A stretch of DNA of 64,000 nucleotides from Mechercharimyces sp. CAU 1602 (lineage in GTDB: Bacteria; Bacillota; Bacilli; Thermoactinomycetales; JANTPT01): the NCBI RefSeq assembly GCF_024753565.1, contig NZ_JANTPT010000001.1, positions 496,001 to 560,000 of the forward strand. Reading direction: 5' to 3'. Position numbers and translations under genes: made by a program. Positions 43,533-47,524 of the stretch are shown here, piece by piece. Position 1 is the first letter of the stretch, and every line of letters starts with the position of its first letter. The notes under the pieces were generated by a model. The model was not told the origin of the DNA and ran no database searches. It saw only the letters and a program-made list of their open reading frames with translations.

Positions 43533-43606
43533 GCGGATGTAGTTCAATGGTAGAACCCTAGCTTCCCAAGCTAGCGGCGCGGGTTCGATTCCCGTCATCC
43601 GCTCCA
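43533..43606 (+). tRNA. tRNA-Gly (anticodon CCC)
   Basis: A complete cloverleaf: acceptor GCGGATG with CATCCGC, D arm GTTC-AATGGTA-GAAC, anticodon stem CTAGC with GCTAG around TTCCCAA (anticodon CCC), and T arm CGGG-TTCGATT-CCCG. The discriminator is T and CCA is encoded. It reads GGG glycine codons. Confidence 0.95.
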
Positions 43607-44397: not shown

Positions 44398-44482
44398 AGA
44401 CTAACCTAAAATAATGGGACACTATAAAACACCTTCGAATATGGTACACTTTAAAAAAGTACTGAATCGGAGGTGTTTTTGC

Positions 44483-44812
44483 GTGAGCAAAAACGTGTAT
44501 TCAAGCGAAGTTAAATGGGCAGTAGTTAAAGATAAGATGAATGGTCAATTCACGAATCAAGAAATCATGGAGAAGTACGGGATTAAAAATGTTTCTCAAA
44601 TTAAAACATGGATGAAATGGTATCGTGAAAATCAGATTCATCGATTTGATCAACCAATAGGCAAACAATATTCGTATGGGCACGGACCTGCCAGTCCAAG
44701 TGATGACGAAAAAAAAGAACGTCAAAGGAAGCACTTACAGCAGGAGAATGAAATCTTAAAAAAGTATTTGGAGATCGAAAAGGAGTTGAAAAAGAAGTCG
44801 TCCTCCAACTAG
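44483..44812 (+). CDS. IS3-family transposase OrfA
   Basis: A 109-residue DNA-binding protein: N-terminal helix-turn-helix (EVKWAVVKDKMNGQFTNQEI and IKNVSQIKTWMKWY) and a C-terminal leucine-zipper-like coiled coil (HLQQENEILKKYLEIEKEL). The GTG start follows CGGAGGTG. A slippery A-AAA-AAG at 44758-44764 lies near its end, in the right phase for a minus-one shift into orfB. Confidence 0.88.
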   Translation: MSKNVYSSEVKWAVVKDKMNGQFTNQEIMEKYGIKNVSQIKTWMKWYRENQIHRFDQPIGKQYSYGHGPASPSDDEKKERQRKHLQQENEILKKYLEIEKELKKKSSSN

Positions 44813-44838
44813 TCCATACATTACGAAAGAAATATACA

Positions 44839-45645
44839 GTGTCCGCTATTTTATCCGCTTTAAATGTTCCCAGATCAACTTATTATCGCTGGGCATCTTC
44901 GCCACCCGTCCACTTGTCTAAGGAAGAGAAGACGATCATTTTCCTTTGCCAAGAAACAACGTATCGCTATGGTCATCGAAAAATCAGAGAGTTGTTAAAA
45001 CGTCGATATCAGATGAAATTAAACCGTAATACTGTTCAACGGATCATGCAGAAATATAATCTCCAGTGTAGAGTGAAGAAAAAGAGAAAGTGGAAATCTC
45101 AAGGGGAATCTGTCATTGTGGCTCCAAACTTATTACAGCGAGATTTTTATGCCCTCAAGCCCAACCAAAAATGGGTAACGGATATTACCTACATTCAATA
45201 TGGTTCAGACACTTTATATTTATCAACGATCATGGACTTGTTTAATAATCAGATCATTGCTTATAAGCTTTATACTCATCAACAAATTCCTTTAGTGATG
45301 GATACCTTGAGTGAAGCACTAGAAAAACGAGGGAACCCTAAAAGAGTGATTATCCACTCAGATCAAGGAAGCGTCTATACATCTTATGCTTATCAAAACC
45401 AGATAAAAGAGAAGGATTTAGTCAGTAGTATGTCACGCAGGGGGAATTGTTGGGACAACGCAGTAATCGAATCTTTTCATTCAAATCTAAAATCAGAGGA
45501 ATTTCAATTTGTTAAATTCAACTCATTATCTTTAGAAGAAGTAAGAGAACGTGTAGATAACTTTATGAGGTATTATAACGAAGTACGTATCCAAGAAAAA
45601 TTAGGCTACCATACACCAATAGAATTTGGTGACATGACAGCCTAA
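44839..45645 (+). CDS. IS3-family transposase OrfB (DDE integrase)
   Basis: The catalytic part, 268 residues from the first possible GTG. HTH_21 domain (TYRYGHRKIRELLKRRY) then the rve core with the DDE triad: D of WVTDITYI, D of IHSDQGSVYTS and E of NAVIESFHSNLKSE. It is in the minus-one frame relative to orfA and stays open back through the slippery site, so it is probably made as an OrfAB fusion (44483-45645) by programmed frameshifting. No stops or frameshifts inside. Confidence 0.92.
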   Translation: MSAILSALNVPRSTYYRWASSPPVHLSKEEKTIIFLCQETTYRYGHRKIRELLKRRYQMKLNRNTVQRIMQKYNLQCRVKKKRKWKSQGESVIVAPNLLQRDFYALKPNQKWVTDITYIQYGSDTLYLSTIMDLFNNQIIAYKLYTHQQIPLVMDTLSEALEKRGNPKRVIIHSDQGSVYTSYAYQNQIKEKDLVSSMSRRGNCWDNAVIESFHSNLKSEEFQFVKFNSLSLEEVRERVDNFMRYYNEVRIQEKLGYHTPIEFGDMTA

Positions 45646-45961: not shown

Positions 45962-46140
45962 TGTTATCACCCTTTATCGCATAAACATAAACTACGTATT
46001 TTTAAATTCTTTTTGTGTTTCTATTACTCTCGTTTCTCTATTATAAAGGTGAATACAAGAGTTTTGCAAATGGAAAAGGTGAGCTGACAAAAGAATAAGC
46101 ATTGAAAAAAAGGCATATGCATGTATTGGAGGGATGGTCA

Positions 46141-46941
46141 ATGATAATTGCCGTGGATTGTGGACGGAGTCACGTTAAGGTGATGACAGAAAAGAAGACA
46201 TTTTCGTTTCCGAGTAAGATCAGCACGTGGCGCAAGCGAAATTTTCGGCAGGAACTAGAAGGGGACATCGAACTGATCTATAATGATCGCTGCTGGTTTA
46301 TTGGTAAGTTAGCTGAGCGTGAAGGAGAGTTTACCAGGCAGGCGATGCAAGATACAAAAGTAGTAGATGAAACGCTTTTGTTAACATTGGCAGCAATTCA
46401 TTTGGCTGAGGGTGCAGGAAGAATCCAGTTGATTATGGGGTTGCCGATTCAAAATTACAACGAAGGTGAGAGAGTAGCCTTACGCAAATTATTAGAAGGA
46501 ATGCACGAGGTTTCAATCAATGGTGAGATGCGCAAGTTTCAAATTGAACGTGTTTATATCACGATTGAGGGAGGTAGTGCATTTTTTACATCCCCGCGCA
46601 TGGGGTTAGTTCGAATTGTGGATGTAGGTGCGAAAACAACCAATTACGCTACATTCAAAGACAAAGTTTTTATTGATCGTGATTCGGGTACACTTCCGAT
46701 TGGATGGGAGACGGTGAGTGAATCTAATGTGGAGGAAATGGCCAATCACATTGCAGGAACCGTATCAAAAAAATGGCAAGCAAAAGATATGGTCATGCTC
46801 ATTGGTGGAGTTGCTTCTAAGGTAGAGCCTCATTTACAAGAACACTTTCCGTATGCCTTTACGTTAGATGATCCGCAAATGGCTAATGTGCGTGGATTTT
46901 TCGAGGTGGGAAGGGCGATGGTAAAATGCAACAGCAAATAA
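46141..46941 (+). CDS. ParM/StbA-like actin-fold ATPase
   Basis: A 266-residue actin-like protein. Phosphate-1 motif IAVDCGRSHVKV (D6, G8, K13), phosphate-2 motif RIVDVGAKTTNYATF (D161, G163, T166-T167) and adenosine motif LIGGVASK (G222-G223) define the fold, closest to plasmid and phage ParM/StbA proteins, which polymerise to push replicons apart. GGAGGGA is 6 bases before the ATG. It overlaps the RHH gene by 16 bp, the order of a type II partition cassette. The setting is chromosomal next to an IS. Confidence 0.82.
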   Translation: MIIAVDCGRSHVKVMTEKKTFSFPSKISTWRKRNFRQELEGDIELIYNDRCWFIGKLAEREGEFTRQAMQDTKVVDETLLLTLAAIHLAEGAGRIQLIMGLPIQNYNEGERVALRKLLEGMHEVSINGEMRKFQIERVYITIEGGSAFFTSPRMGLVRIVDVGAKTTNYATFKDKVFIDRDSGTLPIGWETVSESNVEEMANHIAGTVSKKWQAKDMVMLIGGVASKVEPHLQEHFPYAFTLDDPQMANVRGFFEVGRAMVKCNSK

Positions 46942-47159
46942 AACGTGTGGGTTTTAATATGTCCGACCCTTTGGAGCGGGAGCTGCTTTACTTCGCTGAG
47001 GAGAAAACTACGAACTTTAGCGGGTTAGTCAAGCATTTGCTTTTTACGTGGAGGGAAGGAAAAGTAGAGATGAATGGAGCGAGAGAAGATACAGCAAGCG
47101 TAACATTTGAAGAAGATCCGAGTGAAGATATTCGCAAAAGTGGCCTACCGTTTGCATGA
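46926..47159 (+). CDS. Ribbon-helix-helix protein, ParR-like partner of the ParM-like ATPase
   Basis: A 77-residue protein whose first half fits a ribbon-helix-helix DNA-binding domain: strand RVGFNMS, helix DPLERELLYFAEEK, turn TNFSG and helix LVKHLLFTW. The second half is acidic and disordered, as in ParR adaptors that bind the filament. The ATG overlaps the end of the ATPase gene by 16 bp. The role as ParR is inferred from position and fold; the centromere site is not identified. Confidence 0.7.
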   Translation: MQQQIKRVGFNMSDPLERELLYFAEEKTTNFSGLVKHLLFTWREGKVEMNGAREDTASVTFEEDPSEDIRKSGLPFA

Positions 47160-47213
47160 CTAAGGAGAATATTACATTTTATACGGTTCAGGTAGCTAGG
47201 GAAGAGGGGTATC

Positions 47214-47462
47214 ATGCGTTGGGAAAATCGCTTACGAAACTACGGTTTTTGGGCTGCTATCGCTGCACTGATTCCTATCATTTTACAACTATTTGGTATT
47301 GATATTGTACCCGCTAAGTACGAGGTGATCGTAAATGCAATTTTATCTGTCTTGGTAGTGTTTGGAGTGATCAATAATCCGGATACACAATCGCGCGGGT
47401 ATGGGGATGATAAGGTTTTGCGACCAGCAATTATTAGTCATGGAAGAAGAAGAAGGAAGTAG
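47214..47462 (+). CDS. phiLC3-type phage holin
   Basis: An 82-residue protein with two hydrophobic segments (WAAIAALIPIILQLFGIDIV and EVIVNAILSVLVVFGVI), followed by NNPDTQSRGYGDD and a very basic tail (HGRRRRK). The opening W-x-x-R-L-R-N-x-x-F-W and the NPDTQ after the second span are the signature of phage_holin_1 (phiLC3) proteins. GAGGGGTATC precedes the ATG. No endolysin is adjacent; it is 54 bp after the RHH gene. Confidence 0.85.
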   Translation: MRWENRLRNYGFWAAIAALIPIILQLFGIDIVPAKYEVIVNAILSVLVVFGVINNPDTQSRGYGDDKVLRPAIISHGRRRRK

Positions 47463-47484
47463 GAGAGCAAAAGAAATAGGTTAA

Positions 47485-47524
47485 AGGGGATCGGAAGGAA
47501 ACACTCCTTATGATCCCTTTTTTG
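47485..47524 (+). terminator. Terminator of the ParM-RHH-holin unit
   Basis: AAGGGGATC-GGAAGG and CCTTAT-GATCCCTTTT form a stem followed by T; it ends at the convergent GNAT gene. Confidence 0.8.

Follow-up and report, generated by a model that had tools for sequence, protein, structure and literature searches.

A conserved chromosomal ParM/ParR-like gene pair in Thermoactinomycetales, followed in one genome by an unrelated holin-like gene

The closest known systems to the locus described here are the chromosomal cParMs of Desulfitobacterium and FcmBC/CorM of filamentous cyanobacteria. CorM (PDB 9rmi), named in the title of its PDB entry as a filament of Anabaena, is, like FcmBC, a plasmid-partition actin repurposed for cell shape. 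The AlfA/AlfB system, which also resembles our locus, is plasmid-borne and has a parN. Chromosomal ParM/ParR pairs are a recently recognized kind of locus: functional chromosomal ParMs have been described, roles beyond plasmid segregation have been proposed for them, and Cb-cParR binds a chromosomal parC (PMC12270681). The main text of that paper does not mention “Thermoactinomyc-,” Laceyella, or Kroppenstedtia. In Nostoc punctiforme, rod shape is controlled by FcmBC, an actin of the plasmid-partition type encoded on the chromosome together with its partner (PMC12645912), and AlpC/AlpA of the Corynebacterium prophage CGP3 is a further pair of an actin-like protein (ALP) and a ribbon-helix-helix (RHH) protein (PMC5539076).

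We analyzed a 64,000-nucleotide stretch of the Mechercharimyces sp. CAU 1602 genome (here called the window). An initial annotation had placed an actin-fold ATPase gene, an RHH-type gene, and a phage-type holin gene in one unit. A check of the open reading frames (ORFs) confirmed that all three genes are present, and the locus and the chromosomal block upstream of it contain the following features.

39931: S13 carboxypeptidase gene of the upstream block
41241: NlpC/P60 protein gene of the upstream block
42257: VTT protein gene of the upstream block
43004: DUF4190-like gene of the upstream block
43719: O-methyltransferase gene of the upstream block
46095 to 46133, plus strand: conserved element resembling a promoter or operator, then a ribosome-binding site, without iterons (alignment of 18 orthologous upstream regions)
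46141 to 46941, plus strand: ParM/AlfA-type actin-like ATPase, 266 amino acids (Pfam ALP_N, PHROG 691, AlphaFold2 model)
46926 to 47159, plus strand: ParR-like small partner with a strand-helix-helix (RHH-type) N terminus, a predicted disordered linker, and a C-terminal SGLPF tail (adjacency, alignment, model)
47214 to 47462, plus strand: phiLC3-type holin-like small membrane protein, a downstream neighbor outside any conserved unit (Pfam PF04531)
47483 to 47521, plus strand: intrinsic terminator between the holin gene and a convergent acetyltransferase gene

The ATPase and RHH-type ORFs overlap by 16 bp, and 54 bp separate the RHH-type ORF from the holin gene. The terminator that had been proposed behind the holin gene proved to be a strong hairpin (fold of −20 kcal/mol, z −3.5). 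The initial annotation had seen no replication, integrase, capsid, or endolysin genes nearby; the flank holds an IS3-type transposase pair with an rve integrase core at 44414 to 45645, only 0.5 kb upstream of the locus, and is therefore not free of mobile DNA. This element is a two-ORF transposase (HTH_28; HTH_21 plus rve) lying between the O-methyltransferase gene and a DUF454/PGPGW gene, and no inverted repeats of at least 14 nt were found around it (window positions 44414 to 45645). A tRNA-Gly gene (anticodon ccc) is located at window positions 43533 to 43606, upstream of the O-methyltransferase gene.

Profiles and structure matches assigned the ATPase to the actin-fold ParM/AlfA group that is typical of type II (ParMRC) cassettes. 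It scored 102 bits against Pfam ALP_N (cut-off, 26.3) and 171 bits against PHROG 691, “partition protein.” Its AlphaFold2 model (pLDDT 84.9, pTM 0.84) matched AlfA (Z 26.3), Dh-cParM1 (Z 25.1), and CorM (Z 25.1), with MreB and actin scoring lower, and its 266 residues make it compact and AlfA-like. The nucleotide-site segments DCGRSHVKV, DVGAKTTN, and IGG are kept among the orthologues, and the protein would be expected to form nucleotide-dependent filaments. The match to the NCBIfam FcmB equivalog was weak (24.5 bits against a cut-off of 300).

The holin-like protein passed Pfam Phage_holin_1 (PF04531; 26.3 bits, cut-off 22) and fell below NCBIfam holin_phiLC3 (TIGR01598; 23.2 bits, cut-off 39.7). 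Its gene lies on the same strand as the pair, across that short gap and ahead of a single terminator, an arrangement that favors a single functional module in which filament and holin serve programmed lysis, spore release, or defense. However, the holin adjoins the pair in no relative examined, and the genes downstream of the pair differ from relative to relative (DUF4064, cysteine desulfurase, and others). A consistent lack of linkage between the holin and the pair was one of the results that the initial annotation had itself named as refuting its unit, and this is what the relatives show. We also read the ORFs within 1.5 kb of 21 holin homologues, and wider stretches for six of them; neighbors were identified by visual reading of the translated ORFs, and profiles were searched just for the prophage-like region L076. 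By this reading, 12 homologues (L035 to L040, L042 to L046, and L048) have no adjoining phage lysis or structural gene, and a further ten in the tree appear to be carried by prophages. By path length in the tree, the window's holin was nearest to the solitary homologues, with weak supports, and no endolysin or other lysis gene was seen next to it or its nearest relatives. Those relatives stand alone beside rnhA/HAD, cwlD/pab, or GerK-like genes. A single module is thus scarcely credible, and the holin is an unrelated chance neighbor of the pair. The idea that the holin was left behind by the phage from which the ATPase descends was likewise rejected, on the basis of the holin's solitary nearest relatives. 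Solitary phiLC3-type holin-like proteins beside these and other chromosomal genes were recorded at L036, L037, L038, L040, and L080 to L085.

The Thermoactinomycetales are spore-forming bacteria with mycelial growth. Named relatives of the window's genome include Polycladospora, Croceifilum, Marininema, Kroppenstedtia, and Melghirimyces. Orthologues of the ATPase, which we call group A, occur in 18 of 42 genomes of this order, the window's own included; those of the relatives show 64 to 70% identity. Each group-A genome has one copy, and the RHH-type gene directly follows it in every case, the position that the adaptor gene has in a type II cassette; since the pairing recurs among relatives, it is not due to chance. 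Fifteen of the 17 relatives share the window's chromosomal block, counted as such when two or more of the five block genes listed above lie upstream of the pair within about 10 kb (the exceptions are L069 and L092), and iscS and thiI lie directly downstream of the pair in four of these 15 (L062, L063, L064, and L066). In genomes and genera without group A, the block is present and the ATPase is missing between the O-methyltransferase gene and iscS.

Of the order's genomes that were searched, nearly all carry genes for SpoIVA, SpoIIIAA, and SpoIIR. Distances between the group-A ATPases correlated with SpoIIR distances over 15 genomes (r 0.69) and with SpoIIIAA distances over 11 (r 0.77), at a Mantel p of 2e-4. 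In both comparisons the ATPase is the more conserved protein (75 versus 67% for SpoIIR, 74 versus 65% for SpoIIIAA). For seven close pairs, dN/dS was 0.02 to 0.04 for the ATPase and 0.01 to 0.22 for the partner. Purifying selection and distances that track those of sporulation proteins therefore identify the pair as an old inherited chromosomal locus rather than a plasmid or prophage relic. The window's contig is 2.15 Mb long and syntenic with the relatives, as expected of a chromosome rather than a plasmid or other independent replicon, and the combination of a ParM-fold ATPase and a ParR-like gene fixed on the chromosome is that of a chromosomal cParMR. Of the initial interpretation, the domesticated chromosomal pair is supported.

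Six further ATPases (group B, L022 to L027) are 51 to 53% identical to the window's and form their own clade in the tree. They represent another ParMR lineage, found within a single family of the order; in L022 and L024 to L027, iteron sites are accompanied by a third gene whose product looks winged-helix-like and weakly matches TrmB. The two groups are nearly exclusive, with both present in G020 only.

Homologous ATPases also occur near lysis genes. Phages D6E and PVJ1 have the ATPase gene downstream of a holin-endolysin cassette, by about 1 kb and 5 kb, respectively, as does a prophage-like region of the window's genome, by about 2.5 kb; an RHH-type ORF, unannotated in D6E, follows it in each case. 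These loci would favor the alternative that the pair is what remains of a plasmid or plasmid-prophage that integrated and is now decaying, as had been considered for the window. Against this, the pair is syntenic, present in single copy per genome, under strong purifying selection, and conserved beyond SpoIIR and SpoIIIAA; a recent relic is refuted, and we consider decay from any such element very unlikely. The phage link fits the wider relatives of the family and not the window locus; here the holin gene comes after the pair and belongs to the solitary type. Among plasmid and phage records, none held a relative of at least 60% identity (best phage, about 34%; best plasmid, about 32%), and group A fell on one side of a branch, apart from viral and phage ALPs, with moderate support (59/73). 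A remote plasmid or phage origin of the ATPase family is nevertheless likely.

The prophage-like region (L076, 4284 to 13458; G000:C1, about 354.3 to 363.5 kb) resembles D6E and PVJ1 in gene order and encodes a tail fiber, a holin, an endolysin, a phiLC3-type holin, a repressor-like protein, a second ATPase with its RHH-type partner, and FtsK-like and replication-initiation-like proteins. Third and fourth, more distant ATPase copies are present in the same genome at L003 (G000:C1:1153375) and L004 (G000:C6:22577); the latter lies on the 33-kb contig C6 and is followed by a 122-amino-acid ORF.

The small partner matched no curated family. Its model has helices at residues 15 to 27 and 31 to 44 and a linker with pLDDT below 50; Foldseek returned no RHH fold match for this monomer model of modest confidence, and an RHH fold is supported by the predicted secondary structure only. 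At strand position 11, presumably a DNA-contact site because Arc-type RHH proteins use an Asn of this strand to contact DNA, 16 of 18 group-A partners have Asp, one has His, and one, the window's own, has Asn, while Asn occupies this position in 25 of 26 other homologues. At the other end of the protein, all 18 group-A partners terminate in SGLPF and a single further residue. In group B the endings are SGMPF plus two residues (five partners) and SGIPFDY (L024). The linker varies, but a tail of this kind persists in both groups, which suggests that it may be the ATPase-binding end, by analogy with the ParR C terminus (PDB 4a62 contains ParM with a ParR C-terminal peptide).

The initial annotation had suggested a search for iterons upstream of 46141; none were found there, nor were direct repeats between 47150 and 47540. 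Within 300 bp upstream of the pair, no dyad occurred twice in any of the 18 group-A genomes, and so these lacked the signature of a parC beside the genes. Group-B loci had three to six copies of GACN4GTC over the same distance in five of six cases (L022 and L024 to L027), with none in L023; this form had been taken from the group-B sequences beforehand and its count is therefore descriptive, whereas a count of all tetranucleotide dyads favored neither group by choice. Other repeated dyads were present upstream in L029 and L030. A generic k-mer repeat test for iterons was weak in both groups, and dyad counts were used instead.

Group A does have a conserved upstream element. In the window, the element and ribosome-binding site follow the pattern ATA-16-CATATGCATG, then GGAGGG, and the consensus over the 18 orthologous regions reads TCATAA...TGCGTATACAT...CGGAGGGATG. 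Blocks of the TCATA type, with a GTATACAT-type block 16 bases on, plus CGGAGGGATG, recur in the orthologues, and a palindrome-rich element (GCATATGCATG and kin) is present upstream in nearly all of them. The element may act as a promoter, as an operator bound by the partner, or in both ways, and this lone conserved element could be a remnant of parC. It resembled a sigma-E promoter, and control by sigma-E would have put the pair in the sporulating mother cell. A sigma-E matrix trained on spoIIIAA promoters from the same order scored the element clearly above background in three sibling genomes only and close to random DNA in most others, and this candidate was rejected.

These data bear on whether the pair still works in chromosomal partition or anchoring. 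The partner would then bind DNA, at the operator-like promoter element or at dispersed sites, and filaments would shift a part of the chromosome or keep it in place, the role supposed for Dh- and Cb-cParMR. The retained strand-helix-helix, the palindrome-rich element, and the binding of a chromosomal parC by Cb-cParR (PMC12270681) all favor such a role; the lack of iterons within 300 bp upstream in all 18 genomes speaks against it, as does the Asp that 16 of 18 partners have where a contact with DNA is predicted. Because the window's partner keeps the ancestral Asn, any loss of DNA binding is not uniform and DNA-bound anchoring still stands, as a possible but rather doubtful reading; a parC could also lie elsewhere on the chromosome.

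On balance we lean toward the reading that the pair is an inherited, domesticated chromosomal ParM/ParR (cParMR) kept for another filament job, with the holin playing no part. Given the lack of adjacent iterons and the altered residue at the predicted DNA contact, it has most likely lost the ability to partition DNA by way of a parC next to the genes. The partner would be expected to dimerize through its N terminus and to use its SGLPF tail to hold the filament, in the way that the ParR C terminus holds ParM. In mycelial spore-formers, the filament might serve shape or septation, or anchor one chromosomal site. More tentatively, and with less than even confidence, we suggest that group A represents a second independent conversion of a plasmid ParMR into a centromere-free chromosomal cytoskeleton, parallel to FcmBC/CorMR, with the DNA-binding strand altered and the filament-binding tail kept. 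Group A is fixed across several families and seems to lack the adjacent centromere, which its sister lineage in the same order keeps, and so the step from partition to another filament role would be open to direct comparison.

The initial annotation knew of no described system of this composition; the point is moot for the trio, and for the pair, chromosomal cParMR cassettes have been described (PMC12270681). As in those cassettes, a ParM-fold ATPase (Z 25.1 to 8x1i) and an adjacent RHH-type ParR are syntenic and strongly conserved within a lineage. Unlike the known chromosomal cParMs, to which it is about 20 to 24% identical, the window's ATPase is compact (266 versus 369 amino acids), and group A is conserved across families of an order and not within one genus; unlike Cb-cParMR with its functional parC, it has no adjacent iteron array. 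AlfA/AlfB of Bacillus subtilis pLS32 is similar in size and compact fold, AlfA being the best structural match (rmsd 2.6 over 245 residues), although the ATPases are just 20% identical. Phage and prophage ALP-RHH pairs share the gene order, with 32 to 34% identity for D6E and PVJ1, but lie near lysis genes and an integrase in phage genomes, and their partners, which lack the SGLPF tail and end for example in -DLI or -EFV, have the strand-position Asn in 12 of 13 cases. FcmBC/CorM come from a different phylum and form membrane-bound filaments with a shape phenotype, and the window's ATPase is far under the FcmB cut-off. Like FcmBC/CorM (Z 25.1 to CorM), however, group A is a chromosomal, plasmid-partition-derived actin with its partner gene directly downstream, in filamentous, developmentally complex hosts; if our suggestion is correct, it would offer, in Gram-positive bacteria, a counterpart of the FcmBC/CorMR systems that control shape in filamentous cyanobacteria.
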